Below, in pieces: positions 26,741 to 51,755 of a stretch of DNA of 60,260 nt (its first letter is position 1; every line of letters starts with the position of its first letter). Location: the NCBI GenBank assembly GCA_947173945.1, contig CAMWGV010000011.1, positions 1 to 60,260 of the forward strand. The letters are read 5' to 3'. This DNA is from an uncultured Lachnospiraceae bacterium (GTDB taxonomy: Bacteria > Bacillota > Clostridia > Lachnospirales > Lachnospiraceae). Under the pieces are notes generated by a model. It did no database searches, was not told the origin of the DNA, and saw only the letters and a list, made by a program, of their open reading frames with translations. The position numbers and the translations under genes are program-made.

Positions 26741-26959
26741 ACGTAAAACTATTTTTTACAGTCCCTTGGAATAATTATCTTGTGATAATAATGTTTTGAT
26801 AGGCAAATAAAGGTAGATGTAAAACAATATTTAATGATGATAGCCAAGAGCTGGAAGAAGTTCTTGCTGTTATACATGAGAAAAACTAATACACATTCTA
26901 GAGGAAGTTCTTGTTGTTATACATGAGAAAAACTAATGCACATGCTGGAGGAAGTTCAA
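26741..26959 (+). other. Leader of the Ter island
   Basis: The 219 bases before the Ca2+ ATPase gene are AT-rich. No strong consensus promoter was found; TTGATA (about 26796) with TAAAAC at 18 bases is a weak candidate. The right part consists of the 47-bp tandem repeats listed separately. Confidence 0.45.
26854..26957 (+). repeat. 47-bp tandem repeat, 2.2 copies, upstream of the Ter island
   Basis: Units at 26854-26900 and 26901-26947 differ at only a few positions, and a third partial unit (26948-26957, GAGGAAGTTC) supplies the ribosome site of the Ca2+ ATPase gene. Each full unit contains GAGGAAGTTC followed by an ATGAGAAAAACTAA segment that could start a 16-19 codon peptide. Whether these peptides are made is unknown. 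Confidence 0.75.
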
Positions 26960-29614
26960 ATGAAGTACAACGGATTGACTGACGCTGAGGTTAAGATCTC
27001 GAGAGAAAAAAACGGTTCGAATATTATCCCAGATTCTGAACCAACAACATTTTGGGATGAGTTTAAGGAAACCTTTGGGGATCCAATGATTAAGATTCTT
27101 TTAGTTATTGCAGCAATTATGATTGTTATGTTTTTCTTTGGATATGCTCAAATTTATGAGCCTGTTGGAACTATTGTTGCAGTATTTATTGTTGCAACAG
27201 TATCTGCAAAAACGGGTGTGGCAAGTGATACAGCATATAGAAAGCTGAAAGAAGACCAGAAAAAAGATATATGTAAAGTTTTCCGTAATGGAATGGTTAC
27301 AGTTGTTGAAGTAGATGACGTTGTTGTAGGTGACAAAGTGTTACTTCAAGCAGGAGATAAGATTCCGGCAGATGGTATTTTGATTGATGGAGATTTGAGA
27401 GTAGATAATTCAGCATTAAACGGAGAAGCCGAAGAGTGTAAGAAATTTGCAACCTCTGAGGATAATGTTTTTGATGAAGAGATTACAGGTGATGTATTTG
27501 TAGATGAATACTCATTGTTTAGAGGTGCGGTTGTATTTGATGGAGAAGGCGTTCTTGATGTACGCAAAGTAGGTCTTAAGTCTATGATGGGTAAAATGGC
27601 TGAAGACATGCAAGATGAAGAGCCTGATTCACCATTGAAAGTTAAACTTGGAATTTTAGCAACTCAGATTTCGAAATTTGGTTATATTGGAGCTGCTGTT
27701 ATAACCGTATTATATATTGCATTCTTTATTTTTAGAGCAGGTGGATTTGCTCCATATTTAGCAACTGGATGGTCTAGTATTGTACAGGATTTGGTTGAAG
27801 CAGTGTCTCTTGCAATAGTTATTATTGTATGTGCTGTTCCAGAGGGATTGCCTCTTATGATTTCTTTGGTTCTTATGCAGAATACAAAGAAAATGTTAGA
27901 TCATAATGTGTTAGTTCGTAAGGCGGAAGGCATTGAAACTGCTGGTTCGTTAAATATTTTATTTAGTGATAAGACAGGAACGATTACAAAAGGTTCATTA
28001 GAAGTTGTAGAATTTTTCACTGCTGATGGAGGAGTCATTCCTATTGAGAACATAAAAGAACATGGAAAATTAAAAACAATGATAGATGTTGCAATCGGAA
28101 TGAATTCAGCGTCTATGTATGATGGTTCACACAAGGTTATTGGTGGAAATGCTACAGATCAAGCACTTATGAGATTTTTGGGAGAAGATAACTATAGACT
28201 TATAAGTAGTGATAGAACTTATATAGCAGGTGTTTCGCAGGGATTTAATTCGGCTAACAAATTTAGTCAAGTTGAAATAACTGATTTGAATCAGACATTC
28301 TATAAAGGTGCTCCTGAAAAATTCTTGGAGATTTCTAATAAGGCATTAGATGCAAATGGAGATGTGGCAGCACTTAACTTAGAAGCAGTTAATGCTAAAA
28401 TTAATGAGCTTGCATCTAGAGCAATGAGAGTTTTAGCGTTTGGCTATTCTAATAAGAAATTGACTCAGGATGCCATTAATGATGACGTTGTTATTATTGG
28501 ATTCGTGGCAATTCGTGATGATGTTAGGCCCGAGGCAAAAGATGCGATTAAGGAAGTTCAAGATGCTGGAATTCAGGTTGTAATGATTACTGGTGATCGT
28601 CTTGAAACAGCAGTGGCGATTGCTAAGGATGCGGGACTTATTCAGAACGAAACAGATAGAGCGTTAACATCTGCTCAACTTGCTACTATGAGTGACGATG
28701 ATCTTAAGGCGATTATTAAAGATATTAGAGTAATAGCTAGAGCATTACCTACAGATAAATCAAGAATGGTTCGTATCTGTCAGGAAATGAATTTGGTATG
28801 TGGTATGACAGGTGATGGTGTTAACGATTCCCCAGCGTTAAAGAGAGCGGACGTTGGTTTTGCTATGGGTAGTGGTACTGAAGCAGCTAAAGAAGCTGGC
28901 GAAATTGTTGTTCTTGATGATAATTTTAAATCAATAAAGGATGCAATTCTTTATGGTAGAACAATTTATAACAATATTTTAAAATTTTGTAAATTCCAGC
29001 TTGTTATTAATGTTGCGGCTGTTGTTGTAAGTGCAATCAGTCCATTCTTTGGAATAGAAGAGCCTTTGAAGGTTACACATTTGCTCTTTGTAAATCTTGT
29101 AATGGACGGATTAGGCGCAATTATGCTTGGAAACGAGCCTGCTCTTGAAAAATACATGAAGGAAACACCAAGGAGAAGAGATGAGAGTATCATTAGCAAG
29201 AAGATGTTTTCTCAGATTTTGACGATGGGAATATGGCTTACAGCTATTAGTTTCTTGTTCTTGAAAGCTCCGTTCTTCAATCAGTTCTTTGAGAATGATG
29301 CACAGAAATATACGGCATACTTTGTATTATTTATTGTAGCTGCGTTATTTAATGGATTTAATGTTAGAGACGAGAGATTTGGAATATTCAAAGGACTTAA
29401 TGAGAATCCAGGTTTTTTAAAAGTTTGGTTTACTATAGTAATTGTACAGATGATTATTGTAAATGCTGCACTTATTCCGTTTACATTCTTTACATGGATT
29501 GGAAATATGTTTAGCTGTGTTCCATTTGGTGTAATGGGATGGGGAGTTACTATTGCATTGGCATTAACAATGATACCGGTTGATTTAATAAGAAAATGTA
29601 TTGTTAGTAAATAA
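26960..29614 (+). CDS. Calcium-translocating P-type ATPase (PMCA-like)
   Basis: The start is the ATG at 26960, five bases after GGAGGAAG, giving 884 residues. The phosphorylated Asp is residue 337 in SDKTGTITK (most pumps read DKTGTLT). Other marks are the actuator LNGEAEE region, the ion-site helix VPEGLPLMISLVL, the nucleotide domain with KGAPEKFL, and TGDGVNDSPALKRADVG. Helix 6 reads NLVMDGLGAIML. It should export Ca2+ from the cytoplasm. TerD proteins bind Ca2+, so a Ca2+ pump opening a TerD operon is functionally coherent. It takes the first position where many Ter loci have the membrane protein TerC, which is not found here. Confidence 0.93.
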   Translation: MKYNGLTDAEVKISREKNGSNIIPDSEPTTFWDEFKETFGDPMIKILLVIAAIMIVMFFFGYAQIYEPVGTIVAVFIVATVSAKTGVASDTAYRKLKEDQKKDICKVFRNGMVTVVEVDDVVVGDKVLLQAGDKIPADGILIDGDLRVDNSALNGEAEECKKFATSEDNVFDEEITGDVFVDEYSLFRGAVVFDGEGVLDVRKVGLKSMMGKMAEDMQDEEPDSPLKVKLGILATQISKFGYIGAAVITVLYIAFFIFRAGGFAPYLATGWSSIVQDLVEAVSLAIVIIVCAVPEGLPLMISLVLMQNTKKMLDHNVLVRKAEGIETAGSLNILFSDKTGTITKGSLEVVEFFTADGGVIPIENIKEHGKLKTMIDVAIGMNSASMYDGSHKVIGGNATDQALMRFLGEDNYRLISSDRTYIAGVSQGFNSANKFSQVEITDLNQTFYKGAPEKFLEISNKALDANGDVAALNLEAVNAKINELASRAMRVLAFGYSNKKLTQDAINDDVVIIGFVAIRDDVRPEAKDAIKEVQDAGIQVVMITGDRLETAVAIAKDAGLIQNETDRALTSAQLATMSDDDLKAIIKDIRVIARALPTDKSRMVRICQEMNLVCGMTGDGVNDSPALKRADVGFAMGSGTEAAKEAGEIVVLDDNFKSIKDAILYGRTIYNNILKFCKFQLVINVAAVVVSAISPFFGIEEPLKVTHLLFVNLVMDGLGAIMLGNEPALEKYMKETPRRRDESIISKKMFSQILTMGIWLTAISFLFLKAPFFNQFFENDAQKYTAYFVLFIVAALFNGFNVRDERFGIFKGLNENPGFLKVWFTIVIVQMIIVNAALIPFTFFTWIGNMFSCVPFGVMGWGVTIALALTMIPVDLIRKCIVSK

Positions 29615-29636
29615 GAATTGAGTGGAGGTGTAAAAG

Positions 29637-30248
29637 ATGGCTATCAATCTTTCTAAGGGTCAAAAGATTAATCTTGAAAAGAAAAGCAATGCAGGATTAG
29701 GAGAGATTTTGGTTAATTTAAATTGGAATTCGCGTCCTGTAAAAAAGAGTGGATTAGCAGGATTGTTTGGTGGAATGACGAGTGCTGATATTGATTTGGA
29801 TCTTGGTTGCTTGTATGAATTTAAAGATGGAAGAAAGGGTGTTGTGCAGGCATTGGGAAATGCCTTTGGTTCTCTTACAAATCCCCCTTTTATAGCACTT
29901 GATGGAGATGATAGGACTGGTGAAAGTTCGGATGGTGAAAATCTCAGAATTAATGGAAATCAGATATCTCAGATAAAACGTATTTTGGTTTACACATTTA
30001 TATATGAAGGCGTTGCCAATTGGCAACAAGCTGATGCGGTTGTAACAATTAAATATCCAGATGCAGAAGATGTTGTTATTAAAATGGATGCGTATAATAA
30101 TGCAAATATAATGTGTGCACTTGCATTATTTGAAAATGTTAATGATGAGACATTTAGTGTTCAAAAATTGGTTCAGTTTTATCAAGGGCATTCGGCAATG
30201 GATGCAGCTTTTAATTGGGGACTGAATTGGAAATCAGGTAGAAAATAG
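29637..30248 (+). CDS. TerD-family protein, divergent copy
   Basis: This 203-residue protein begins MAINLSKGQKINL, the hallmark TerD N-terminus, and ends with FNWGLNWKSGRK. The middle keeps an acidic metal-site pattern (ADIDLDLGCLYEF and LDGDDRTGESSDGENLRI) but differs from the canonical DFDLDASAF version. TerD domains are Ca2+-binding beta-sandwiches in stress-response systems. AGTGGAGGTG precedes the ATG, 22 bases after the ATPase stop. It may correspond to a TerA-like subgroup, which is not certain. Confidence 0.85.
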   Translation: MAINLSKGQKINLEKKSNAGLGEILVNLNWNSRPVKKSGLAGLFGGMTSADIDLDLGCLYEFKDGRKGVVQALGNAFGSLTNPPFIALDGDDRTGESSDGENLRINGNQISQIKRILVYTFIYEGVANWQQADAVVTIKYPDAEDVVIKMDAYNNANIMCALALFENVNDETFSVQKLVQFYQGHSAMDAAFNWGLNWKSGRK

Positions 30249-30261
30249 AAAGGAGAGGCAT

Positions 30262-30529
30262 ATGTCAATCAATCTGTTAAAAGGACAAAAAATTAATTTA
30301 TCAAAAGAAAATGTAGAACTTTCTCAAATTATGGTAGGACTTGGTTGGGTCGAAGTTGAGAAACCAAAAGGATTTTTTGCGAGTTTATTGAGGTTAAAAT
30401 TATGACGGAATGATAGTAATGATTGTAGGCGAAAATTACGGTAAGAATGGTGAGTGGAAGTTTAATGCCCTTGATCAGCTAGTTCGTGAGGCAAGCAGAC
30501 TTCATTCATTGATAGAGTACTATATATAA
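30262..30529 (+). pseudogene. Internally deleted TerD-family pseudogene
   Basis: From the ATG at 30262 (after AGGAGAGG) the frame reads MSINLLKGQKINLSKENVEL and ends at TGA (30403-30405) after 47 residues. From 30401 in the next frame comes a TerD C-terminus (YDGMIVMIVGENY, NGEWKFNAL, then LHSLIEYYI) ending at TAA 30527-30529. About 100 codons of the middle, including the acidic Ca2+ sites, are missing, and the two ends are out of frame. The parent was closest to the next gene (30543-31154), whose start and end it matches. It keeps good ribosome-site spacing within the array. Confidence 0.88.
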
Positions 30530-30542
30530 GGAGGAACAATAA

Positions 30543-31154
30543 ATGGGAATAAATCTTCAAAAAGGACAGAAAATTGACTTGACTAAAGGTGGCGGAACAG
30601 GTTTGAAAAAGGTTATGGTAGGACTTGGCTGGGATGAGGCAGAGCAGCCTAGACAGTCGAAAGGTTTTTTGTCAAGTTTATTTGGTGGGGATTCAACACC
30701 ACAAAGCATAGACTGTGATGCAGCTGCTGTTTTATGTGCTGAAGATGGAAAAATGAGAGAACTTGTATATTATGGGCAATTAAAGTCTGGTAATGGTTCT
30801 GTTGTGCATCAAGGAGATAATCTTACAGGTGAGGGAGATGGTGATGATGAACAGATTATGGTAGATATTCCAAATCTTCCATCTAGTATTCATAAAATCG
30901 TGTTTGTTGTTAATATTTATGAGGCTGCTTCGAGAAATCAACACTTTGGTATGATAAATAATGCATTTATCCGATTGGTGGATATGGATAAGAATACTGA
31001 ACTTTGTAGATTTAATCTTTCTGAAAACTATAATGGTATGGAAGGAATGATAGTAGGTGAAATCTATAGGTATAACGGAGAGTGGAAATTCAATGCAATA
31101 GGACAACCAGTTCAAAAAGCAAGTCGTGTGCAGGATCTTATTGAAAAAATTTAG
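30543..31154 (+). CDS. TerD-family protein with altered first metal site
   Basis: This 203-residue TerD paralogue starts MGINLQKGQKIDLTKGG after AAGGAGG. It has a Gly/Ser insertion (GFLSSLFGGDS) near residue 40, and its first acidic motif reads IDCDAAAVLC where canonical TerD has DFDLDASAF. The second site, GDNLTGEGDGDDEQIMVDI, is intact. The C-terminal NGEWKFNAIGQPVQ is typical. Loss of acidic residues at the first site suggests weaker or altered Ca2+ binding (inference). Confidence 0.9.
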   Translation: MGINLQKGQKIDLTKGGGTGLKKVMVGLGWDEAEQPRQSKGFLSSLFGGDSTPQSIDCDAAAVLCAEDGKMRELVYYGQLKSGNGSVVHQGDNLTGEGDGDDEQIMVDIPNLPSSIHKIVFVVNIYEAASRNQHFGMINNAFIRLVDMDKNTELCRFNLSENYNGMEGMIVGEIYRYNGEWKFNAIGQPVQKASRVQDLIEKI

Positions 31155-31172
31155 AAAGGATAATGAATTTTT

Positions 31173-31748
31173 ATGGCGATTAATTTACAAAAAGGACAGA
31201 GAGTTAGCTTAGATAACTCGTTACAGATGGTTATGGTAGGTCTTGGCTGGGATACAAACAAATATGATGGTGGTTTTGATTTTGACTTAGATGCTTCAGC
31301 ATTTATGCTGGGTGCAAATGGAAAAATTCAGCAGGAAACAGATTTTGTCTTTTATAATAATGCAAATGGCAGAAATAATGCCATTAAACACATGGGAGAC
31401 AATCTTACAGGAGTTGGCGATGGTGATGATGAAGTTATTATTATCGATTTCTCTAAGATACCTGCAGATATTGAAAAGATTGCTATTTGTGTAACTATTC
31501 ATGAAGCAATTGAAAGAAGACAAAATTTTGGCCAAGTGTCCAATGCGTATGTTAGAGTTGCAAAAATTGCAAATGAATTCGATTCAATGGGTGAAGATCA
31601 GTTAAGATTTGATTTGGAAGAAGAATTTTCTATCGAAACTGGTTTGGTAGTATGTGAGATATATCGCAAGAATGGTGAATGGAAATTCAATGCGGTTGCA
31701 GCAGGATATCAGGGTGGCTTAGAAACTATGTTAAACATGTATCAGTAA
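31173..31748 (+). CDS. TerD-family Ca2+-binding stress protein (canonical copy 1)
   Basis: This 191-residue protein has all canonical TerD features: MAINLQKGQRVSLDN, GLGWDTNKYDGGFDFDLDAS, GDNLTGVGDGDDEVIIIDF, and the C-terminal YRKNGEWKFNAVAAGYQGGL. The paired acidic clusters coordinate Ca2+ in structures of TerD-family proteins. It is highly similar to the next gene, with which it forms a recent tandem duplication. It lies 18 bases after the previous TerD gene. Confidence 0.96.
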   Translation: MAINLQKGQRVSLDNSLQMVMVGLGWDTNKYDGGFDFDLDASAFMLGANGKIQQETDFVFYNNANGRNNAIKHMGDNLTGVGDGDDEVIIIDFSKIPADIEKIAICVTIHEAIERRQNFGQVSNAYVRVAKIANEFDSMGEDQLRFDLEEEFSIETGLVVCEIYRKNGEWKFNAVAAGYQGGLETMLNMYQ

Positions 31749-31762
31749 GGAGAAAATAAAAA

Positions 31763-32347
31763 ATGGCAGTAAATCTTTCAAAGGGACAAAGAGTAAGTTT
31801 AGATAATTCTATGAGAATGGCGTTGGTAGGACTTGGTTGGGATATAAACAAGTATGATGGTGGTTTTGACTTTGACTTGGACGCATCAGCATTTCTATTA
31901 GGTGCAAATGGAAAATGTTTAAGGGATGAGGATTTTGTTTTTTATAACAACCTTAACGGTAGAAATGGAGCTGTAGTTCATCAGGGAGATAACCTTACAG
32001 GAGAAGGCGATGGTGATGATGAAGTTATTATTATCGATTTTACAAAGGTCCCAGATGAAATTCAGAAAATTGCTGTTTGTGTAACAATTCATGATGCACA
32101 GGCAAGAAGACAGAACTTTGGGCAAGTATCAAATGCATATATTAGAGTGGCAAAAATTGCGAATGAGTTTGATATGAACGGTGAAGACCAAATTAGATTT
32201 GATCTTGAAGAGGAATTCTCTATCGAAACAGCTTTGGTTGTTTGTGAAATTTATAAGCATAACGGTGAATGGAAGTTTAATGCGGTTGCTTCCGGATTCC
32301 AGGGCGGACTTGAGGCACTTGTTTCAAATTACGGTTTAAGTTGTTAA
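31763..32347 (+). CDS. TerD-family Ca2+-binding stress protein (canonical copy 2)
   Basis: This 194-residue protein begins MAVNLSKGQRVSLDNSMRM and keeps YDGGFDFDLDASAFLLG and GDNLTGEGDGDDEVIIIDF. It differs from the upstream copy mainly in the loop around residues 50-70 and the last residues (SNYGLSC). The ribosome site is AAGGAGAA. It is the last TerD in the array; a terminator-like hairpin follows 60 bases later. Confidence 0.96.
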   Translation: MAVNLSKGQRVSLDNSMRMALVGLGWDINKYDGGFDFDLDASAFLLGANGKCLRDEDFVFYNNLNGRNGAVVHQGDNLTGEGDGDDEVIIIDFTKVPDEIQKIAVCVTIHDAQARRQNFGQVSNAYIRVAKIANEFDMNGEDQIRFDLEEEFSIETALVVCEIYKHNGEWKFNAVASGFQGGLEALVSNYGLSC

Positions 32348-32412
32348 TAATTGGTTTATTGTGCGTGTCAGGGAGGCACTTTATAGTACCAGCATTTATT
32401 AATTGGAATGAT

Positions 32413-32450
32413 GGACGGGAAAATCTCTCTGAGGTTTTCTCGCCCTTTTT
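32413..32450 (+). terminator. Terminator or attenuator after the TerD array
   Basis: GGG-AAAATCTC can pair with GAGGTTTT...CCC across a 3-base loop (about 32417-32445), with a 4-base bulge, followed by TTTTT. It ends nine bases before the ATG of the radical SAM gene, so it may set the ratio between abundant TerD proteins and the downstream genes. Confidence 0.6.
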
Positions 32451-32458
32451 ATTTGTAT

Positions 32459-33079
32459 ATGAAAGAATTGTTAATTTCTCATTATGTAGATACCACCAAG
32501 GTTCTAGGACCATATGATAGAAGCGCATTATGGGTTCACGGATGTTGTTTCGAATGCCCTGGTTGTATTGCAAAAGAAATGAATCAGAACATCCCTCAGA
32601 CAGTAAAAAGTAACGATATTGCAGAGGTTTTTGCACGTATAGGCAATACTGAGGGAATCACAATTAGTGGAGGAGAACCTTTTCTTCAGGCTGAAGCGTT
32701 GGCTGAAATGATTGATTTGATAAAGAAGAAAAGGGACTATGGGGTAATAGTTTATACAGGTTTTTTGTATGAAAATCTAAAGAAATCATCAGATGAAAGT
32801 ATAAATAAACTATTGAACCATATTGATATCTTAGTAGATGGTCAATATAAAGAAGAACTGGACGATGGCAAACCTTTTAGAGGTTCGTCTAATCAGAGAA
32901 TACTTGAATTGACAGATAGATATCATTCTATTATTCGACAATATTACTATGAATCTAATAAAAGAAACATAGAGATAAATATAAAAGAAAAAAATGTTTA
33001 CATGATAGGAGTTCCATCAAAATATGGACTTCAAACATGGAAATCCTTTAAGGCAAAGGCGGAGGGAAAAAATGGCTGA
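32459..33079 (+). CDS. Radical SAM activase-like protein (NrdG-type), Ter-linked
   Basis: The start chosen is the ATG at 32459, which aligns MKELLISHYVDTT with NrdG-like N-termini and gives 206 residues. No ribosome site precedes it, because the hairpin at 32413-32450 is immediately upstream. The cluster motif CCFECPGC (CxxxCxxC) binds the [4Fe-4S] centre, and ITISGGEPFLQAEAL is the SAM-binding GGE motif. Proteins of this type activate glycyl-radical enzymes. No ribonucleotide reductase is encoded nearby, so the target is probably something in this island. It overlaps the next gene by eight bases. Confidence 0.82.
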   Translation: MKELLISHYVDTTKVLGPYDRSALWVHGCCFECPGCIAKEMNQNIPQTVKSNDIAEVFARIGNTEGITISGGEPFLQAEALAEMIDLIKKKRDYGVIVYTGFLYENLKKSSDESINKLLNHIDILVDGQYKEELDDGKPFRGSSNQRILELTDRYHSIIRQYYYESNKRNIEINIKEKNVYMIGVPSKYGLQTWKSFKAKAEGKNG

Positions 33080-34112
33080 GTTTGATATATTAAGCAAAGA
33101 TTATATTAAATTAAATTTTCTTAGTGAAATTGTGAATACAAAAGCGGTCAGTATGAATGTTTATCTTGAGATAGATGGTGTTGAAAAAGATTTTCTAGAT
33201 GTAAGAACTGCTGAAAAAAATGCATATAGATTCAATAATTTTAATGTTTCAGAAGATGCTAGTAGTAATTGTCTCACATTTAGACCGGTTGTAATTGGAT
33301 GTCTTGCGTATTTTAAGATTATTAGTAATCAGACATTACGTATAGAAATAGTAAAAAATGGGACAAATTCAGTGGCACAGTCATTTGATATTTCAGCAGG
33401 TGAGACCAAAATTGAATTTGATCCACAAGGCACATCGAAATATGTGATGAAAGTTAATCAAATATCGGTGTCAGAAGCAATAGAAAGTCCTACATCAGTG
33501 CCAAAGCCAGAGGTTCAACAAAGTAGTAATCCTTTTGAATCGGAATTTTCTGGTTTTAATGTTGCTCCGATTCCAGTGGCTCAGTCAACTGATAACTCGA
33601 TAAATTCAGTTTCTAATAATACCCCTGTCGCAATACCACCTCAACCTGCAGTAATTCCAGAGGTGCTTGTTCAACCAAGCTTTTCGACAGTAAGTAGAGA
33701 AGAAGTTAGAGTTAAGCAAAATGAATTAAATGATTTGCAGCACAGTGAAAGTAGACTTAATACAGAAATTTCAGAGTTGAATGATAAAATTGTTGAGCTG
33801 AATGACAAAATCCAAAAACTAACAGACAATAAAAGGCATCTAGTTGAAAATATGGATAAGTTGCAAGCTGAATATAATAAGAATTATAGCAATTATGAGC
33901 AAGATTTTGAAGAGATAAAAAGTAAATATGATATTGATGAAGAAATACTTCTTATGTATGCGGATAGAGAGGTTGTTCCTATCGAAGAATTGATTGAACG
34001 TGCAAAATTTGATATAAATCAGCTAGAAGAACAAATAAGAATTTTTATTGAAGCGCAAGCGAGGAAGACAGCAGAAATAGAAAATGAACTTAAAATAGGA
34101 AAGAAAGAATAA
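33072..34112 (+). CDS. Ter-island protein with beta-rich N-terminus and C-terminal coiled coil
   Basis: The start is the ATG at 33072 after GGAGGGAAA, overlapping the previous stop, giving 346 residues. I do not recognise a named family. Residues 1-140 look beta-rich (NVYLEIDGVEKDFLDV, LRIEIVKNG), reminiscent of a TerD-like or other beta-sandwich. Residues 145-215 are a Pro/Ser/Asn/Val-rich linker. Residues 215-346 are a long coiled coil (LNDKIVELNDKIQKL). It is followed 13 bases later by another coiled-coil gene. A scaffold or adaptor role is inferred. Confidence 0.75.
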   Translation: MAEFDILSKDYIKLNFLSEIVNTKAVSMNVYLEIDGVEKDFLDVRTAEKNAYRFNNFNVSEDASSNCLTFRPVVIGCLAYFKIISNQTLRIEIVKNGTNSVAQSFDISAGETKIEFDPQGTSKYVMKVNQISVSEAIESPTSVPKPEVQQSSNPFESEFSGFNVAPIPVAQSTDNSINSVSNNTPVAIPPQPAVIPEVLVQPSFSTVSREEVRVKQNELNDLQHSESRLNTEISELNDKIVELNDKIQKLTDNKRHLVENMDKLQAEYNKNYSNYEQDFEEIKSKYDIDEEILLMYADREVVPIEELIERAKFDINQLEEQIRIFIEAQARKTAEIENELKIGKKE

Positions 34113-40783: not shown

Positions 40784-40790
40784 GGATTAT

Positions 40791-42987: not shown

Positions 42988-43004
42988 GAAAGAGGAAAGA
43001 AGAA

Positions 43005-44000: not shown

Positions 44001-44015
44001 TTTTGAGGTGGTTTT

Positions 44016-45518
44016 ATGATTGATTCGTTCAAAGTATTTAATGGACATAGGATAGGTTCTTCACATGTAGCAAATGGAAATCCATGTGAAGACTTTTCGA
44101 TGAGTTATCAGAATGAACTTGTGTCCATAGCAGTAATAAGTGATGGACATGGTGATAAAAATTGTTTTAGGAGTGCTAAAGGTGCACAAATTGTATGTGA
44201 GGTAGCTGTTGAACGGATTAAAAATACATTTACATGTAAGGAAGCCCTTGAAAGTTTAAAAAATTCTCCTGAGAGAATAATATCGGAGATAGAAAAAAGC
44301 ATTATTCATTATTGGAATGTAAATGTAGAAAATGATATTATTACAAATCCTATTTCAGATGAAGAACTGCTTGGATTAGATGAACATGTTGTCGATGCAA
44401 TTAAAAACACTGGACGATCTCATAAGGTTTATGGGTGTACATTAATAGCTGCTGTATTTTTTGATGATTTTTGGTTTGGTATTCATATTGGTGATGGAAA
44501 ATGTGTTGCAATTCAAAAGAATGGATTATATAAACAACCTATTCCATGGGATAATGAAAACTGTGTAGGAAATCGTTCAACTTCGATTTGTTCAAGTAGA
44601 GCATACGATAGTTTTAGATTTACATATGGAGAAGACGTTCCTGTTGCGGTATTTGTAGCTTCAGATGGAGTGGATGAAAGTTTTGATGAAAATGGATTGA
44701 ATAAGTTCTATTATACATTGGCTTGTTGGGTTAAAGCTTTATCGACAGATGATTGTAAAAATAAACTTGATGAAATGCTTTGTCAGATAAGTCAGGTTGG
44801 TAGTGGGGATGATGTTTCAGTTTCATGTATTGTAGATTGCGTAAATGAGATTAAAAAACCTTTTGCTACGTCTCAACAAGTGGCAGAAAAAATGGAAGAA
44901 CTATATTCCACATTGTTGGATATAGAAGGAAGATGTTCTGATTTAGTTGAACGAAAAAGTGAAGTTGAACATAAAGTTGATGAAATCGAACGAGAGATTA
45001 ATGAATTAGAGGAACAAATTAGACATAAAAAAGAACAATTGAATGAAAGAAAGGCTGAGCATGAAAGTGTTCTAAAGGCATTTTCTTCATCAAAGGAGCA
45101 GCTAGATGGAATTATTTCTCAATTTGAAGAAGCAAAAGATGTTAAGAAAAGAGTTGATGACTATTGGAAAGAAATAGGAGAACCGATTACTGATAATTTT
45201 ACCATTATGAGTTATACTCCAAAGAAATTCGAGGATGTAGTTATTGTACAGACGAATTCGGAGAATGCTCCAGTTAGTGAGAATACTGAAAAGGCAGAAG
45301 AAACACCTAGAGAGGATGTTAAAACTTCAACTAAAGATAGTGAAAAGCATATAGTTGTAGTTCCACAGGTAAATATTGCAGAAAGTGTTCAGAATATGAA
45401 TATAAATGAAAATAAAGAAGGAACAATTGTTTTAGGTGAGTTACCACAAGAACAGAAAAGTATTGATGGTTATACAAAAACTGGAGTTCTTGGCAATTTA
45501 TTCAAGAAACAAAAGTGA
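44016..45518 (+). CDS. PP2C-type Ser/Thr phosphatase with coiled-coil tail
   Basis: The first 280 residues form a PP2C domain with the metal-binding signatures CEDFSM, ISDGHGD, GIHIGDGK, VASDGVDES and GSGDDVSVS. Residues about 285-385 are a long charged coiled coil, and an acidic, poorly structured tail follows, ending in LGNLFKKQK. It should reverse phosphorylation by the kinase encoded at 41728-42987. The ribosome site GAGGTGG precedes the ATG, 15 bases after the vWA gene. The coiled coil may bind the other coiled-coil proteins of the island. Confidence 0.93.
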   Translation: MIDSFKVFNGHRIGSSHVANGNPCEDFSMSYQNELVSIAVISDGHGDKNCFRSAKGAQIVCEVAVERIKNTFTCKEALESLKNSPERIISEIEKSIIHYWNVNVENDIITNPISDEELLGLDEHVVDAIKNTGRSHKVYGCTLIAAVFFDDFWFGIHIGDGKCVAIQKNGLYKQPIPWDNENCVGNRSTSICSSRAYDSFRFTYGEDVPVAVFVASDGVDESFDENGLNKFYYTLACWVKALSTDDCKNKLDEMLCQISQVGSGDDVSVSCIVDCVNEIKKPFATSQQVAEKMEELYSTLLDIEGRCSDLVERKSEVEHKVDEIEREINELEEQIRHKKEQLNERKAEHESVLKAFSSSKEQLDGIISQFEEAKDVKKRVDDYWKEIGEPITDNFTIMSYTPKKFEDVVIVQTNSENAPVSENTEKAEETPREDVKTSTKDSEKHIVVVPQVNIAESVQNMNINENKEGTIVLGELPQEQKSIDGYTKTGVLGNLFKKQK

Positions 45519-45529
45519 GGGGAGTTTTG

Positions 45530-45820
45530 GTGGCAGAAATTGAATATGACGAAGGAATAATGAATATGTGTAGTAGTATTTTAGAAGAGATTGATTTGAA
45601 AAATCCATGCAATGTACAGTTTAAGTATAGAAAAGAGTAACCTTATTTTTTAGAGATTAATACAAGAATGTCAGGTGGGATTCATATGGCATGTAGAGCT
45701 GCGAGAGTAAATATTTCTAATATAGCAGTTAATAAACTCCTTGGAGTAGATAAGGCTTGGAATATAAATAAAGATGCCAAGATTATATCGCAGGTTGAGA
45801 TACCAGTAATATTAAATTGA
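45530..45820 (+). pseudogene. ATP-grasp C-terminal remnant with in-frame stop
   Basis: A GTG at 45530 after GAGGGGAG opens a 97-codon frame interrupted by TAA at 45638-45640. Before the stop it reads NPCNVQFKYRKE, and after it PYFLEINTRMSGGIHMAC. This is the metal-binding end of an ATP-grasp ligase (N.Q.K...., then EINxRxSGG). The N-terminal 200 or more residues are absent. ATP-grasp enzymes are members of the Ter biosynthetic module next to HAD, PRTase and CitE-like genes, as here. The remnant overlaps the HAD start region, which shows it was part of the operon. Confidence 0.85.
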
Positions 45821-45822
45821 TT

Positions 45823-46536
45823 ATGGAAGAATGTAGATTTTGTGATTTAGATAGTACACTTATTTTTTCACATAGACATGAGATTGGAGAAAAGGTTGTA
45901 GTGGAGTATCTAAAAGATAAAGAACAGTCATATATGCAAGCAAATATATACGAAATTTTTCGGAGTGTTGGGTCGCGTATTGTGCCGCTTACTTCAAGAA
46001 CATGTTCTCAGTACAATCGTATTATATTTCCTATATATCCTGAATATGCATTGATAGACAATGGTGGGATATTGCTGAAAAATGGAGAAATAGATGAGGC
46101 GTGGCGGGAAGAAACTATTGCTATTACTGCTGAGGATATAAGTGTCATGAGATTAATTGAACCACAATTGGAAAAGTATGGTAAGATTAAGTGGCAGGAT
46201 GATTTAGTGCTTTTCCTTAAATTAGTAAATTCGGATGATACTTGTACAGTAAATAAAATAGTAGAAGAATATAATTTGCTTTTTTTTGAGCATGGTGCAA
46301 AAAAGTATATATGTTCTAGAGCGATGAACAAAGGAATGGCAATCAAACGTTTTAAGGAAAGATTTATTGTGAAAAAAGCCTATATGGCTGGAGATTCTTT
46401 GGTGGATTATGCGACAGCACCTTTTGTAGATGCTCTATATTTACCAAAAGAATTAATGAATAAAGTACCTTTTCATGCCAATGTATCTTACGTTGATAAG
46501 CTGGATTTGGCTGAAAAAATTTTGAGAGGATGCTAA
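45823..46536 (+). CDS. HAD-superfamily phosphatase, Ter biosynthetic module
   Basis: The start chosen is the ATG at 45823, giving 237 residues; an in-frame TTG at 45817 overlaps the remnant stop. HAD motifs are visible: motif I CDLDSTLIFSHR (DxD), motif II PLTSRT, a conserved Lys in NKGMAIKRF and motif IV AGDSLVDYATAPFVDAL. The sequence resembles the HAD phosphatases coded with PRTase and ATP-grasp genes in Ter clusters, where a sugar-phosphate or nucleotide-like substrate is proposed. It looks intact although its ATP-grasp neighbour is dead. Confidence 0.9.
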   Translation: MEECRFCDLDSTLIFSHRHEIGEKVVVEYLKDKEQSYMQANIYEIFRSVGSRIVPLTSRTCSQYNRIIFPIYPEYALIDNGGILLKNGEIDEAWREETIAITAEDISVMRLIEPQLEKYGKIKWQDDLVLFLKLVNSDDTCTVNKIVEEYNLLFFEHGAKKYICSRAMNKGMAIKRFKERFIVKKAYMAGDSLVDYATAPFVDALYLPKELMNKVPFHANVSYVDKLDLAEKILRGC

Positions 46537-46898
46537 TATGGTAACAAGCTTTTATTAAATAAATAGAATTCTAGATTTGACACTAAGCAAGTATAGCGCA
46601 CTTGATGAAAATGGTGTTGATGGTGTTCTGAAAAAGCATTTATTTTTTAAGACAAATTCATAGAAATGAGTTGTTGTATAATGAAACAATTTATTTGATT
46701 TATGAGTTTAATCCCTCTGAAAATAAAGGGAAACGGTTAAAAATATTTCTTAAGATTGATAGTCAAAGTAATAATAGTTATGAGAGTACTTAGATTGAAA
46801 ATTGACCATTACAGTAGCAAAGCTTAGGCAGCGTTTATGGAAGTAATAGAACTAATGCACATATTATTAACGAACGAATTGATAAGGAGTTTCTGTAA
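46537..46898 (+). pseudogene. Decayed gene of unknown family
   Basis: The 362 bases between the HAD and vWA genes hold protein-like fragments in different frames. From the ATG at 46538 the frame reads six codons, a stop, then LDENGVDGVLKKHLFF; a frameshift near 46650 leads to LRQIHRNELLYNETIYLIYE and NKGKRLKIFLKID; and a third frame ends NAHIINERIDKEFL at TAA (46896-46898). No family is recognised. The pattern is typical of an inactivated reading frame, not of an ordinary intergenic region. Confidence 0.6.
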
Positions 46899-47462
46899 AT
46901 GGAAAGAATAGACTATGTATATATTATTGTTGATAATTCTAATAGCATGCTAGGAAATAAAATAGGTTCAGTTAATGATGCCATAAACAATATTTTATTT
47001 CGGCTAAGAAAAATACAAGCAAAAAATGATGTTAGTATTCAAATGATACAAATGTCTTTTGCTAAAAGTGTTGTTTGGTCAAATGTGTTTCCTGTACCAC
47101 TTAGTCAGTTTGTATATAACGATTTGTATACTTGTGAAAGTGAATCTAATATGGGGACTGCTTTTAAGGAGCTATATGAAAAATTAGAAAGGCAATATGA
47201 AGTTACATCAACAAAGGATTCAGAAACTACTATATTGTTATTTTCAGATGGCTTGTATTCCGATGATGTATATGCAGGATTATCTTTATTAAAGAAAAAT
47301 CCGATTTTTAAAACTGCTAATAGGATAGGAATAACATTTCATGATGATTTATCGGAGGATTTGGCAGAAAAATTTCTAGCTGAATATGTATCGGGAAGTG
47401 ACAATATAGTTATTGACGACTTTGGTAAACTTAACAGATTATTATTTGAAAAGTATCGATAG
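46899..47462 (+). CDS. Short vWA-domain protein (TerF/TerY-like)
   Basis: This 187-residue protein is a bare vWA domain: DNSNSMLGNKIG (DxSxS MIDAS), SNMGTAF and LLFSDGLYSDD. The start ATG follows ATAAGGAGT. It is much shorter than the vWA protein at 43005-44000 and lacks its proline-rich tail. It sits beside the biosynthetic genes, so it may recruit them or a metal ion to the signalling complex (inference). Confidence 0.88.
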   Translation: MERIDYVYIIVDNSNSMLGNKIGSVNDAINNILFRLRKIQAKNDVSIQMIQMSFAKSVVWSNVFPVPLSQFVYNDLYTCESESNMGTAFKELYEKLERQYEVTSTKDSETTILLFSDGLYSDDVYAGLSLLKKNPIFKTANRIGITFHDDLSEDLAEKFLAEYVSGSDNIVIDDFGKLNRLLFEKYR

Positions 47463-47471
47463 GTGATGAAT

Positions 47472-48428
47472 ATGGTAGAGATTGAGGACCAAATTGCTGA
47501 ATATATTCGCAATTTGATTAGTAAAAAAGGAAAAGATATTTTAAGCAACCCAATAGGTATGTTTGGTGCAATTTGTGATGCTTTTATTTCATATTCTGAT
47601 ATTTTGATGGCAATAAAGCCAGCAGCGGTTACTGATGCCTCTGTTGAACTTAAGAGACAACTGGAGATAGGGAGATTTGATTGTAAAAAAATTTTTGATG
47701 AATTTAAGACAGCATCTAATCAAGAGGCTTTGAATCAATATCTAAAGATAGTATTTCAGGCAATAGATTGTGAAGAAAAGTTTGTTTATTCTTCGATAGA
47801 GGTACTAGATAATAGTACCGTAATAAAAGAGAAAAAAGTTAAATTAGAAAAAGGTAATGAAAAAAATAAAACTGCAGATGATTATTATGAATTAGCAAAA
47901 GCACAAAAAACAATCAGAGGTATTGATAATAAAAGTATTTATATTGGTAATCTTTTGAAAGCTGTTGAAATGGGGCATTGTGAAGCAATTCATATAATGG
48001 CCCATTATTATATTAAAGGAAAATATGTTCCTTTAGATATAGATAAAGGAATTAAGCTTTTGAAGCAAATTGCTGACGATGGTAATGCACTTGCAGCATA
48101 TGATCTTTTTAATTTATCGAAAAGAAATGTGATATCTTTTGATGAGGCATTTCCATATTTGAAAGTTGCTGCCAATGGTGGAATGAAGAGCGCAATCTTT
48201 GATTTAGGGATGGTCTATTATGAAAATGGAAGTCCAGAAGACTATGTTAATGCTGTAAAATGGTTTGAACAAGCCTGCGAATTTGGTGATATGCATTCAT
48301 ATTATCAGCTTGCTTTATGTTATAGGTTTGGCCATGGGGTAAAGTGTGACGGTAAAAAAGCTATGGAGTTATTGAAAAAAGCGGCTATGCTTGGTCATTA
48401 TAAAGCAAAAGAAATTATTGGAGATTGA
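47472..48428 (+). CDS. Sel1-repeat protein with unknown N-terminal half
   Basis: The preferred start is the ATG at 47472, five bases after AGGTGA, giving 318 residues; GTG/ATG codons at 47463 and 47466 are alternatives. The C-terminal 170 residues have Sel1-like (TPR-type) repeats, for example AIHIMAHYYIKGKYVPLDID, LLKQIADDGNALAAYDL, AVKWFEQACEFGDMHSYYQL and AMELLKKAAMLGHYKAKEII. Sel1 repeats mediate protein contacts. Residues 1-140 match nothing I recognise. It follows the vWA gene almost without a gap. Confidence 0.8.
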   Translation: MVEIEDQIAEYIRNLISKKGKDILSNPIGMFGAICDAFISYSDILMAIKPAAVTDASVELKRQLEIGRFDCKKIFDEFKTASNQEALNQYLKIVFQAIDCEEKFVYSSIEVLDNSTVIKEKKVKLEKGNEKNKTADDYYELAKAQKTIRGIDNKSIYIGNLLKAVEMGHCEAIHIMAHYYIKGKYVPLDIDKGIKLLKQIADDGNALAAYDLFNLSKRNVISFDEAFPYLKVAANGGMKSAIFDLGMVYYENGSPEDYVNAVKWFEQACEFGDMHSYYQLALCYRFGHGVKCDGKKAMELLKKAAMLGHYKAKEIIGD

Positions 48429-48513
48429 TTGAAATACAACTAGGATGCGATAACATAGTTATTGGACTAATAATTATATTTTATGATACGTTTGTAGAGA
48501 GGAAAATAGTTTA

Positions 48514-49479
48514 GTGATTGATAATATTGAATTGAAGTATAGTGTAGGTGCGTTGCTATATTCACCAGCACTGAATACAAAAATTGCTGATGCAATAATA
48601 AAGGAAAAATATGGAAAACAGTTCTCTTTGGCATTATGCTTGGAGGATAGTATTGCTGATGATTCTGTGGAAATGGCTGAGAAACAGCTAATAAACACCT
48701 TAAGAAAGATAGATGAAGCTTGTAAGAATAATGTTTTCTTTATGCCGAAGATTTTTATAAGAGTTAGATCGCCGAAACAGCTGGAAAAAGTATTTGATAT
48801 GCTGGGAGATTTAAATGATATTATTACAGGATTTATATTTCCAAAGTACTCTATAGGAAATGCACAAGAATATAATATAGCAATGAAAAAAATAAATGCT
48901 AAGTCTTCAAAATGCGTATATATGATGCCTATTTTAGAAAGTAAGGATATTGTTGATTTTAAAACAAGAAGAGAAGTTCTAAATTTATTAAAAGAAGAGA
49001 TTGACTCTGTTAATGAATATGTCCTTAATGTGAGAGTTGGTGGTAATGATTTTTCAAATGAGTTTTCAACGCGAAGACATTATGATGAAACTATATATGA
49101 TGTATTGCCTATTGCACAGCTCTTAGGCGATATTTTAACTGTTTTTTCAAGGGAATATGTTGTTTCGGGACCTGTATGGGAATTTTTTGCTAGCGATAAT
49201 GGTGAATGGAAGACAGGGTTGAAGCAAGAATTGAAACTTGATAAATTGAATGGTTTTGTTGGGAAAACAGTTATACATCCCAAGCAGATTGCAGTTGTTA
49301 ATGAGGCATTAAAAGTTTCTAATAAAGATTTTGAAGATGCAAAGGAAATCCTTAATTGGGATGAGGAAGGACTTCAAGTAGGGAAGAGCTTCGCTGGAGA
49401 AAGAATGAATGAGGTGAAAACACATTATAATTGGGCTATGAAGACATTAGTTTTGGCTCAAATATATGGTGTATTATAA
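48514..49479 (+). CDS. CitE/HpcH-HpaI-type lyase, Ter biosynthetic module
   Basis: This 321-residue protein starts at GTG (48514), about 10 bases after GAGAGGAAA. Family features are LLYSPALNTKIADAII, CLEDSIADDSV (the Glu-Asp pair of the metal/acyl site), IFIRVRSP, MPILES and TVIHPKQIAVVNEAL. HpcH/HpaI and CitE proteins cleave or form C-C bonds of acyl substrates. Homologues are part of the predicted nucleoside-like metabolite pathway in Ter clusters. The 85 bases before it hold no clear promoter. Confidence 0.9.
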   Translation: MIDNIELKYSVGALLYSPALNTKIADAIIKEKYGKQFSLALCLEDSIADDSVEMAEKQLINTLRKIDEACKNNVFFMPKIFIRVRSPKQLEKVFDMLGDLNDIITGFIFPKYSIGNAQEYNIAMKKINAKSSKCVYMMPILESKDIVDFKTRREVLNLLKEEIDSVNEYVLNVRVGGNDFSNEFSTRRHYDETIYDVLPIAQLLGDILTVFSREYVVSGPVWEFFASDNGEWKTGLKQELKLDKLNGFVGKTVIHPKQIAVVNEALKVSNKDFEDAKEILNWDEEGLQVGKSFAGERMNEVKTHYNWAMKTLVLAQIYGVL

Positions 49480-49493
49480 GGAGTTGTTTAAAG

Positions 49494-50609
49494 GTGAGAG
49501 AATATTCTATTGAAGACTTGGTATGTGTTGCTAAAAGAGAGAATAACAGTAAAAGAGCGTATTTATATGTGAATCCTATTCAAGGAAAACATATACCAGT
49601 TAGTCCCAATAAGCCATTGGAATTGTATAAAACGATGGCGAAAAAACTTGAAGAAAGATTTCCAAATGAGAGATTACTTATAATAGGATTTGCTGAGACT
49701 GCTACAGCTATTGGAGCAGCAATTGCCAGCTATGCAGATAATGTTACTTTTTGTACACAGACAACACGTGAGAAATATCAAGGAGCAAGGTATTTGTATT
49801 TTACAGAATCACATAGCCATGCAACGGAGCAGAGTTTGATAATAAGTGGATATGAATATATATTGGATGATGTTGATCGTATTGTTTTCGCGGAGGATGA
49901 AGTTACTACAGGTAATACTATTATTAAATTGATTTCTGCAATAAGAACAGAATATGAGGGTAAGTACTTGAAGTTTGGTATTATTTCAATACTAAATAGT
50001 ATGAGTGATTATAGAATATTTGAATTGGAAAAAGATGGAATTCCTTGTTTATATATTAATAAAATACCTTATGAATACAATATTGAGAATATTGATTCTT
50101 TTAAATATTTAGAGTTTGAATCGGTGAAAGCATCACCATACAATGAAAAGATTATTACAGGAATTATACCTCCGAATTTAAGATATGTTCAAGATAAGAG
50201 TACATATTCTGATAGCGTCAATGCTTATATTAAAAAGGTGTGCGAGAAAGTTCATATTTCAAAGGATATAAAAAGGATTCTTGTTTTAGGTACAGAAGAA
50301 TTTATGTTTCCACCAATGAAAGTTGCAGAGTATATACAAAACGAACATCCGAATGTGGAAGTGAGTTTTCATGCGACAACCAGAAGCCCCATTATGATAA
50401 GCTGTGATGAAAACTATCCATTGCATTCACGATGGTCAATAAATAGTGTATATGAAGCAGGAAGAATAACTTATGTTTATAATCTTTCTAATTATGATTT
50501 GGCAATAGTTTTATCCGATGCTGACGTTAAATCTACAGTAGGAATAGAAAAATTAGAGGAGGCTTTGGCAGGAGCAGGGTGTAAAGAAATCATCTTTGTT
50601 CACGCATAA
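49494..50609 (+). CDS. Phosphoribosyltransferase-like protein with probable TRSP domain
   Basis: The start chosen is GTG at 49494 after AAGGAG (spacing 10), giving 371 residues; upstream in-frame codons lie inside the previous gene. The PRTase core has IIGFAETATAIGAAIA and the PRPP-binding loop FAEDEVTTGNTIIKLI. The C-terminal portion (about 245-371), with ILVLGTEEFMFPPMKVAEYI and PLHSRWS, matches the TRSP domain typically fused after the PRTase_2 domain. Such proteins are characteristic of Ter biosynthetic modules, where transfer of a ribosyl phosphate is proposed. Confidence 0.88.
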   Translation: MREYSIEDLVCVAKRENNSKRAYLYVNPIQGKHIPVSPNKPLELYKTMAKKLEERFPNERLLIIGFAETATAIGAAIASYADNVTFCTQTTREKYQGARYLYFTESHSHATEQSLIISGYEYILDDVDRIVFAEDEVTTGNTIIKLISAIRTEYEGKYLKFGIISILNSMSDYRIFELEKDGIPCLYINKIPYEYNIENIDSFKYLEFESVKASPYNEKIITGIIPPNLRYVQDKSTYSDSVNAYIKKVCEKVHISKDIKRILVLGTEEFMFPPMKVAEYIQNEHPNVEVSFHATTRSPIMISCDENYPLHSRWSINSVYEAGRITYVYNLSNYDLAIVLSDADVKSTVGIEKLEEALAGAGCKEIIFVHA

Positions 50610-50614
50610 AAGTG

Positions 50615-51670
50615 ATGAGAAGTAGTTATAATCTAGAAGATGTAAATATCTTATTAAAAGATATCACTGGTTTAGTTGAACCATTACCAGCTGAAATAAG
50701 AGAAAAGAAAATACAAAGTGGTATACATTATTGTGAGATGTTACCCTTAGAATATCAACCTAGTGATAAATATATGCAGGCATATGAATTTGCTTTGAAA
50801 GAGTATTCAAAGGATACCGCAGATGCAGTGGCAAAAATGGCAGAAAAAATCTTTAAGCTAAAAGGTGAGAGTCTAGTTATTGTTTCGCTTGCAAGAGCTG
50901 GAATACCAATAGGAATACTTGCTAAAAGATATATTGAAAAAAGACATGGATGTAAAGTGAGACATTATGCTATTTCAATTATTAGAGACAGAGGTATAGA
51001 TCATAATGCTATGCGATATATTTTGGAAAGGCATAGTGCTAAAGATATTCAATTTGTAGATGGATGGGTAGGCAAGGGAGCCATATTTACAGAATTATAT
51101 AAAGAATTAGGACAATATCCAGACATAGATAAAAGCTTGGCTGTTGTTTCAGATCCTGCGAATCTAACAGATTTGTGTGGGACACATGAAGATATTTTAA
51201 TTCCTAGTTCATGTTTAAATGCTGTTGTAACCGGTTTGATTAGTCGAACTTTCTTGAAAAGTGACATCATTGGCGATAAAGATTTCCATGGAGCAGCATA
51301 TTATAGTCAATTGGAAAATACGGATTTGTCTAATGAATTCATAGATAGCATTGAATGTAATTTTGATTTTGATATAGATGATTATGTGGAGAGAAAAAAT
51401 GAATCTGGAATAGAAATTGTTAAAAATATTGCTCGTATATATAATGTAGGTAATATAAATTATATAAAACCAGGCATAGGTGAAGCAACTCGTGTATTAT
51501 TAAGAAGAATACCGTGGAAAATTCTTATTAATAAAGAGTATGTTGGAGCAAAGGAACTGGAACATATTATTCAACTTGCTAAAGAGAAAAAGGTTGATAT
51601 TGAGATATGCGGTATTGATTTAGGTGGATATAAGGTTTGCGGGATAATAAAGCAACTTGCTGATGTGTAA
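50615..51670 (+). CDS. StiP-family protein with C-terminal PELOTA-like domain
   Basis: An ATG at 50615 (or the adjacent GTG at 50612) gives about 351 residues. The N-terminal 260 residues show a PRTase-like fold pattern (VIVSLARAGIPIGILAKRY, then HYAISIIRDRGID) and CGTHEDILIPSSCLNAVVTG, as in the StiP family (predicted cysteine protease). The last 80 residues (NYIKPGIGEATRVLLRR and VDIEICGIDLGGYKVCG) match the PELOTA_1 RNA-binding-like domain. It follows the PRTase gene within six bases and completes the predicted metabolite module. The enzymatic activity is not established. Confidence 0.88.
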   Translation: MRSSYNLEDVNILLKDITGLVEPLPAEIREKKIQSGIHYCEMLPLEYQPSDKYMQAYEFALKEYSKDTADAVAKMAEKIFKLKGESLVIVSLARAGIPIGILAKRYIEKRHGCKVRHYAISIIRDRGIDHNAMRYILERHSAKDIQFVDGWVGKGAIFTELYKELGQYPDIDKSLAVVSDPANLTDLCGTHEDILIPSSCLNAVVTGLISRTFLKSDIIGDKDFHGAAYYSQLENTDLSNEFIDSIECNFDFDIDDYVERKNESGIEIVKNIARIYNVGNINYIKPGIGEATRVLLRRIPWKILINKEYVGAKELEHIIQLAKEKKVDIEICGIDLGGYKVCGIIKQLADV

Positions 51671-51755
51671 AGGAGATGAAAGAAATATCCAATTACATCT
51701 TTTGAAAAATGATATGTCTACAATGTGGGATGAAATTATTTTCTCAATTTTATAG
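51663..51755 (+). CDS. Possible 30-residue peptide or gene remnant
   Basis: An ATG at 51663, overlapping the StiP stop, opens a 30-codon frame (start MCKGDERNIQLHLLKNDM, end IIFSIL) ending at TAG 51753-51755. It has no clear ribosome site and no recognised family. It could be the start of a truncated further island gene or chance. Confidence 0.25.
   Translation: MCKGDERNIQLHLLKNDMSTMWDEIIFSIL

Follow-up and report, generated by a model that had tools for sequence, protein, structure and literature searches.

Ter systems are reportedly built from TerD proteins, a TerY-P triad and an operon for a nucleoside-like metabolite, as set out by Anantharaman, Iyer and Aravind in 2012. Here we describe an island of this type in a 60,260-nucleotide stretch of DNA (the window hereafter; positions 1 to 60,260 of contig CAMWGV010000011.1, assembly GCA_947173945.1) from the 2.84-Mb draft genome of an uncultured Lachnospiraceae bacterium. 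The island resembles Ter systems in its TerD, vWA, PP2C, kinase, HAD, CitE-like lyase, phosphoribosyltransferase (PRTase)-TRSP and StiP-PELOTA genes and differs from them in that its ATP-grasp gene survives only as a relic. It also differs in carrying a P-type ATPase gene and a core of five adjacent genes for a radical SAM protein (rSAM), three coiled-coil proteins (CC1, CC2 and CC3) and a triple AAA+ protein (AAA3), neither of which is mentioned in the available parts of PMC11090510, PMC7824862 and PMC7159879. No description of the core was found in the literature searched, Anantharaman 2012 lying outside that coverage. The Ter, TerY-P and FtsK modules are already known, and the interesting part is a core that recurs with alternative partners.

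Several described systems share parts of this gene set. According to the available portion of PMC11090510, compound Type III-A CoCoNuT systems likewise combine a TerY-P triad, coiled coils and two TerY-like vWA proteins, the second shorter and without the threonine of the metal ion-dependent adhesion site (MIDAS), and among the CoCoNuT variants one places a SpoVK-type AAA+ protein beside a glycine-zipper protein while others contain FtsK/HerA ATPases. The island differs in that no McrC or nuclease family was found in it and in an AAA+ protein of three domains as opposed to two; neither its rSAM protein nor its coiled-coil proteins appear in that portion. The McrB-type GTPase and McrC typical of a CoCoNuT were not found, as none of the 20 island open reading frames (ORFs) encodes McrC and AAA3 matches AAA_5 at 51 bits, far below its 164 bits to PF00004. 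The GAP1-N2 GTPase-centric systems, in the accessible text of PMC7159879, recruit HSP70 or kinase/PP2C/vWA themes, and a distant relative of our core adjoins DO-GTPase2 and GAP1-N2. Such a DO-GTPase and GAP1 pair is missing from the 20 ORFs of the window and present in that relative (L014), whereas triple AAA+, rSAM and CC proteins go unmentioned in the same text, in which a radical SAM domain appears only under FtsH ternary systems. Phage-borne Ter systems, as far as PMC7824862 is available, are matched by a virus-classed record (L033) in which the whole island lies beside portal, terminase and tail genes, although its gene set is much larger and includes the core, and its phage nature is uncertain. 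Finally, the AAA+ domains of AAA3 match the CbbX/SpoVK/EccA family, from which the protein departs by three domains per chain, an extra N-terminal region and IDD in the first Walker B motif.

Gene order and protein anatomy of the five-gene core

A single scan of genome contigs for AAA3 with six exact peptide patterns returned 15 loci (L-numbers denote loci of relatives and G-numbers genomes), which is a lower bound because patterns of this kind, run on viral contigs, passed over a virus-classed record that does encode AAA3 and the kinase. The loci are titled Lachnospiraceae, Ruminococcaceae, Ruminococcus, Clostridia, Clostridiales and Butyrivibrio. In 11 of these 15 loci (L017, L018, L019, L021, L022, L025, L027, L028, L029, L030 and L031) the genes rSAM-CC1-CC2-CC3-AAA3 directly adjoin one another in that order, as they also do in the window and in L033, a virus-classed locus. 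As other genomes show the same order, the arrangement is more than chance, and the proposal in the initial annotation that the gene combination forms a unit stands up to the synteny comparison, the homologues not being scattered. Contig ends limit several loci: AAA3 reaches the end in L021 and also in L030, where it is split over two frames, and L020 and L023 start at a contig end, with the rest of the core, or CC1-CC3, at other contig ends there (L052, L051). CC3 was found in 15 of the 16 genomes searched. The core genes of the window are as follows.

32408..33079, + strand: rSAM, NrdG-like radical SAM protein (PF13353), CX3CX2C motif intact
33072..34112 (longer ORF from 33024), + strand: CC1, beta-sandwich domain, disordered linker and C-terminal coiled coil (AlphaFold2, pLDDT 75.5, and structural matches)
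34126..35592, + strand: CC2, long coiled coil, helical region and C-terminal alpha/beta domain (AlphaFold2, pLDDT 83.4)
35610..37148, + strand: CC3, hydrophobic Gly-rich N-terminus followed by a coiled coil; CC2 paralogue, judged by profile alignment
37175..40783, + strand: AAA3, 400-residue N-terminal region followed by three CbxX/SpoVK-type AAA+ domains

The three cysteines of the rSAM motif are unchanged in 13 of 13 alignment rows, and the protein scores 104.3 bits against the NrdG activase model TIGR02491, below the cut-off of 126.1; a second relative is encoded elsewhere in the same genome (36% identity). The relationship of CC2 and CC3 is read from an hhalign probability of 97.8% (E 6.5e-13) over 381 columns, a length that is partly coiled coil and was obtained with distant rows left out. 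Residues 8-26 of CC3 have a mean hydropathy of 2.83, and a hydrophobic N-terminal stretch is seen by eye in 12 of 13 rows, the distant row L016 having none, which is consistent with the membrane association first suggested for this island. In AAA3 the Walker A/B pairs lie at residues 420/479, 699/760 and 973/1032, and the first Walker B reads IDD and not IDE in 14 of 15 rows, the sequence of L025 giving no pattern match. The protein exceeds the cut-off of the CbbX/SpoVK model TIGR02881 (442 bits against 423, summed over the three domains), falls below those of TIGR02880 and TIGR03922, and has CbbX and EccA1 as its closest solved relatives by sequence. A homologue with two AAA+ domains in place of three occurs at L031:10001-12727, with HerA-like and FtsK genes directly 3' and no upstream Ter genes.

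Modules flanking the core and their variation

The 20 intact island genes occupy positions 26936-51670 on the + strand, so that the co-directional block of about 25 kb in the initial annotation is borne out together with every gene class it named; its gene list had nevertheless left out the Sel1-repeat gene (47463-48428) and a second vWA gene. Counting relics, neighbours are separated by 0-87 bp or overlap by 7-11 bp, and the left edge lies 315 bp past LysS. Pfam and NCBIfam provide names for a P-type cation ATPase, four TerD proteins, the NrdG-like radical SAM protein, the triple CbxX-type AAA+ protein, a kinase, two vWA proteins, PP2C, HAD, a Sel1-repeat protein, the CitE-like lyase, PRTase-TRSP and StiP-PELOTA, while no Pfam family exceeds its cut-off in CC1, CC2, CC3 or a short kinase-like protein. 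Upstream of the core lie the following features.

26850..26957, + strand: tandem repeat, 47-bp unit in 2.3 copies (Tandem Repeats Finder), with its end just within the first island ORF (P-type ATPase)
26936..29614, + strand: P-type cation-transporting ATPase (PF00689, PF00122, PF00702 and PF00690 above cut-off; DKTGT, PEGLP and NxxMD motifs)
29637..30248, + strand: divergent TerD-family protein (PF02342, 41.8 bits), lacking the GDGDDE motif seen in the remaining three TerD proteins
30262..30529, + strand: TerD relic, N- and C-terminal pieces with the middle gone (sequence comparison)
30543..31154, + strand: TerD (PF02342, 231 bits)
31173..31748, + strand: TerD (PF02342, 246 bits)
31763..32347, + strand: TerD (PF02342, 250 bits)

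The substrate of the ATPase is presumably Ca2+, an assumption that we base on its motifs. The array of TerD genes seen initially contains four intact members, all above the curated PF02342 cut-off of 25.3 bits (41.8-250.5 bits), but a fifth is the relic. In tallies read from gene orders, from which loci cut by a contig end at the relevant place were excluded, 11 of the 13 loci that are informative have P-type ATPase and TerD genes 5' of rSAM (window, L017, L018, L019, L021, L022, L025, L027, L030, L033 and L052); the ATPase of L027 is divergent, at 29% identity. At L025:4055-5107 an unrelated ORF of 350 amino acids sits between TerD and the core. The 47-bp tandem repeat is a possible regulatory region, and a 12-base piece of it is found again at 46851.

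Directly downstream of AAA3 the window encodes a kinase, phosphatase and vWA set, to which a second, shorter vWA gene is added further on.

40773..41714, + strand: pseudokinase-like protein, without N-lobe and catalytic Asp, sharing a C-terminal domain with the next gene (kinase)
41728..42987, + strand: Ser/Thr kinase-like protein (PF00069)
43005..44000, + strand: vWA protein 1 (PF13519, PF00092), MIDAS residues present
44016..45518, + strand: PP2C-type phosphatase with C-terminal coiled coil (PF13672, motif scan)
46899..47462, + strand: vWA protein 2, short (Pfam match), MIDAS Thr missing

The adjoining TerY-like vWA, PP2C and kinase genes at 41728-45518 make up a TerY-P-like triad. The Gly loop, K46, D141 and D160 of the kinase are kept in six of six sequences, and the zinc ribbon to which TerY-P kinases are fused at the C-terminus, an OB fold being the alternative form, is absent, the only cysteines invariant among six kinases being C159 and C347. 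The pseudokinase-like protein is considered to have no N-lobe because its alignment to the kinase begins only at its residue ~109 (hhalign 99.8%), and the position of the catalytic Asp is not kept. Kinase, vWA and PP2C genes follow AAA3 on the 3' side in half of the 12 informative loci (window, L017, L018, L022, L023 and L033), and the pseudokinase accompanies them in five of these six, L033 being without it.

The remaining genes belong largely to a metabolite module and include two further relics.

45539..45814, + strand: ATPgrasp_Ter relic (family PF15632), C-terminal part with internal stop, 54% identity to residues 242-333 of the L017 ATP-grasp protein
45817..46536, + strand: HAD-superfamily phosphatase-like protein (NCBIfam models under cut-off; DxDxT motif)
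46538..46811, + strand: HerA-like (DUF87) ATPase relic, N-terminal part interrupted by stops and a frame change (comparison with relatives)
47463..48428, + strand: Sel1-repeat protein (PF08238)
48514..49479, + strand: CitE-like C-C bond lyase (PF15617, 342 bits)
49431..50609, + strand: phosphoribosyltransferase with TRSP domain (PF15609, PF12500)
50612..51670, + strand: StiP-PELOTA protein (PF11202, PF15608)

Lyase, PRTase-TRSP and StiP-PELOTA were recognised above cut-off as parts of a Ter metabolite operon, and HAD by sub-cut-off models and its motif. The set of HAD, CitE-like, PRTase and StiP genes claimed at the outset is thus there, but as an incomplete module: ATP-grasp (PF15632), intact in L017, is only a relic in the window, the rest of the genome not having been searched, and this copy might not make the metabolite product unless another gene, not searched for, supplies the step. 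The fuller form is seen in Butyrivibrio sp. AC2005 (L043, L017 and L044), in which an HTH regulator, the P-type ATPase, seven TerD-like ORFs and the five core genes are followed by pseudokinase, kinase, vWA, PP2C, a small coiled-coil protein, Zn-peptidase, ATP-grasp, HAD and HerA, then by a toxin-like protein of 400 amino acids, a helical protein of 163 amino acids, FtsK, a short vWA and Sel1, and at the end by an ORF of 228 amino acids, CitE-like lyase, PRTase, StiP and TerD. Leaving TerD copies aside, the window is without about eight of these genes, of which two survive as relics. The window copy, with three relics (TerD, ATP-grasp and HerA-like), is by this comparison of sequences a reduced form of the island, and a compact form occurs again in L022, which has no ATP-grasp, HerA or FtsK between PP2C and lyase.

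The genes lost in the window include an effector module of the relatives. The toxin-like proteins at L044:4290-5492 (400 amino acids) and L046:6585-7913 (442 amino acids) have residues 1-136 in common at 41% identity and different C-termini, as in polymorphic toxins, the longer one ending in a PF15644 papain-fold toxin domain, and they adjoin FtsK, HerA and a small helical protein. In its available part, PMC11090510 credits to Anantharaman 2012 a WXG100/FtsK module that this set seems to resemble. The window keeps only the HerA relic of it and gives no FtsK match.

Composition, distribution and a virus-classed copy

The GC content at third codon positions is 0.176-0.277 in all 20 island genes against 0.313-0.460 in flanking ORFs of at least 150 amino acids, and 2-kb windows wholly inside the island have a GC content of 0.302-0.360 against 0.362-0.440 for those wholly outside. 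AAA3 was matched at E<=1e-60 in 4 of 250 family genomes, two of these being distant forms, and the CC3 profile in 1 of 37 genus, 4 of 397 family, 1 of 391 class and 1 of 398 phylum genomes, in sets that overlap and each count the island's own genome. The four family matches of CC3 are the four of AAA3, all with a row in the CC3 profile, and one of them, G112, is the genome of L031. The island is therefore sporadic, as lateral transfer would predict, and was probably acquired laterally. The higher AT content and lateral origin proposed initially both agree with these data.

Traces of the insertion itself were sought around the island. The segments 26600-26990 and 51640-51860 have no direct or inverted word of 10 or more bases in common, no integrase family was found among the island ORFs in Pfam, and the window contains no tRNA, tmRNA or Rfam family. 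The LysS neighbourhoods of nine congeners hold no island gene and no clear copy of the window's right flank, for which two of them gave only weak ABC-transporter matches, so that they yielded no clean empty site. A search of 20 relatives for the histidine kinase of the right flank found nothing at E<=1e-60. In the mobile-element collections CC2 gave no tblastn match among plasmids or phages and CC3 none among plasmids, whereas for AAA3 there were matches in 34 plasmid records, none reaching 60% identity (28-32% among the 20 listed), and in two phage records at 28-29%, which we take to be general CbxX relatives. Among viral contigs the AAA3 and kinase peptide patterns found no relative, by a method that overlooks true ones, and the CC2 and CC3 patterns found one record, that of L033.

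This virus-classed record of 67.5 kb (L033, L045-L047) carries the whole island, with a GC content of 0.46-0.53 in L046, flanked on one side by portal, terminase, primase and DNA-methyltransferase genes and on the other by tail genes, the surroundings having a GC content of mostly 0.58-0.66. Macro-domain and ADP-ribosylglycohydrolase genes come after the island. The record may be a decayed prophage, and its phage nature is not certain, since PHROGs recognised no capsid or tape-measure gene among ten of its ORFs and one related record looks partly chromosomal. Phages carrying Ter genes are reported in the accessible part of PMC7824862. In L069-L071 other ORFs come after the portal gene, as in the L033 record; in these and in L078 and L079, all virus-classed relatives of that record, the post-portal ORFs appear methylase- and DUF262-like by eye, with host-like ORFs beyond. 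A phage cargo hotspot is not claimed: the related record L070 (G1218) has no tail-gene match and host-like ORFs beyond, and the tail-protein query was empty in three relatives.

Possible functions and significance

We favour, with a probability of about 0.5, the explanation that the block is a horizontally acquired, modular stress or conflict island of the Ter type, present here in a reduced form, in which a scaffold and AAA+ assembly is organised around the five-gene core. In such an assembly CC1-CC3 would form a membrane-tethered coiled-coil scaffold, with the hydrophobic N-terminus of CC3 as anchor, and a CbxX-type ring of AAA3 would remodel or thread it. The cation pump and TerD proteins may supply Ca2+ or read it close to the membrane, and the kinase, phosphatase and vWA set could switch the assembly. 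In full islands the lyase, PRTase, HAD and ATP-grasp module would make a nucleoside-like signal, and the FtsK, HerA and toxin module would be the output. A shared history of the island genes is supported by pairwise distances that correlate across ten gene families (Spearman 0.53-0.96 for 45 family pairs, 0.96 for AAA3-TerD), obtained without an unlinked control gene and in some cases from only six pairs. That limit weighs against our explanation, as do several other observations: unrelated genes lie upstream of AAA3 in L026, whose CC genes are near the end of another contig (L050); CC3 was not found in the genome of L024; CC1 has no sequence-profile similarity to TerD; and PADLOC returned only weak family-level matches, and no specific one, for ten island proteins. 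P-type ATPase and TerD genes are not upstream of the core in L031 and L050, and L019, L020, L024, L027, L028 and L031 have no kinase, vWA and PP2C genes 3' of AAA3. Phosphorylation control, proposed initially, thus finds its genes in the window but in a modular set missing from 6 of 12 informative loci, and given the loci without TerY-P (6/12) or Ter genes (2/13) the core and the Ter parts need not act jointly.

A tentative alternative, to which we give distinctly less weight, is that the core stands by itself as a conflict-system or effector cassette, with which the Ter genes share no more than an island, and that its control module is interchangeable between TerY-P, GAP1-N2/DO-GTPase and HSP70. 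The core of L031, and that of L050 up to CC3 at the contig end, indeed have no TerD upstream. At L014:875-12303 (G240) a DO-GTPase2 and a GAP1-N2/M gene precede homologues of rSAM, CC2 (95.5%), CC3 (97.8%) and AAA3, and in G194 (L016:5249-6766 and L015) an HSP70 gene and three unassigned ORFs are followed by rSAM, CC3 (90.9%) and AAA3 in one run, which also includes an RCC1-repeat protein. The available part of PMC7159879 counts GAP1-N2 systems, including those with HSP70 or kinase/PP2C/vWA themes, among conflict systems, and these distant cores are the best hint that the core belongs there too. However, other partners were seen in these two distant loci only, CC1 was not supported in L014, and TerD with P-type ATPase stands upstream in 11 of the 13 informative close-clade loci.

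We consider it unlikely that the island is a type VII-like secretion or antagonism locus, in which AAA3 would correspond to EccA, FtsK/HerA to EssC, and the small helical protein and toxin to cargo. AAA3 does resemble EccA (TIGR03922 at 401 bits, under the cut-off of 467; PDB 9lur), and relatives carry FtsK, HerA, the 163-amino-acid helical protein and toxin-like proteins with constant N-termini and variable C-termini, one of them PF15644. Yet the pairing of an FtsK/EssC-type ATPase with WXG100 is not found in the window, which has no FtsK or toxin gene, L022 has no FtsK, HerA or toxin between PP2C and lyase, and L019, L020, L024 and L027 have none directly 3' of AAA3; a search with the HerA-like protein found nothing at E<=1e-10 in the genomes of L019 and L024, the helical protein has no WXG100 match in Pfam, and membrane parts of type VII secretion were not seen. 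Equally improbable, in our judgement, is a decaying, functionless remnant in the window: the three relics and the roughly eight Butyrivibrio AC2005 genes that are missing or degraded would fit it, but 20 long open frames persist, with catalytic motifs in those checked, and L022 has a similarly compact form, lacking ATP-grasp, HerA and FtsK at the corresponding position.

A bolder and rather doubtful extension sees in the core a membrane-remodelling conflict machine not recognised before, which would serve as a portable effector chassis for at least three modules (Ter/TerY-P, GAP1-N2 GTPases and HSP70), with a TerD-like domain of CC1 linking it to the TerD array. We know of no agreed mechanism for Ter systems, and a portable core would, if real, give them and the other systems an interchangeable output engine to a sensor. 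With its AAA+ motor, paralogous putative scaffold proteins and hydrophobic anchor, the core supplies concrete proteins whose presumed complex could be purified and imaged, and the naturally small version in L019, P-type ATPase, TerD and core alone, offers a minimal test set. The window copy is a poor first experimental choice because it lacks modules of its fuller relative. Should the core prove to act under the control of GAP1 or HSP70 as well, conflict systems that have so far been handled separately would become linked.

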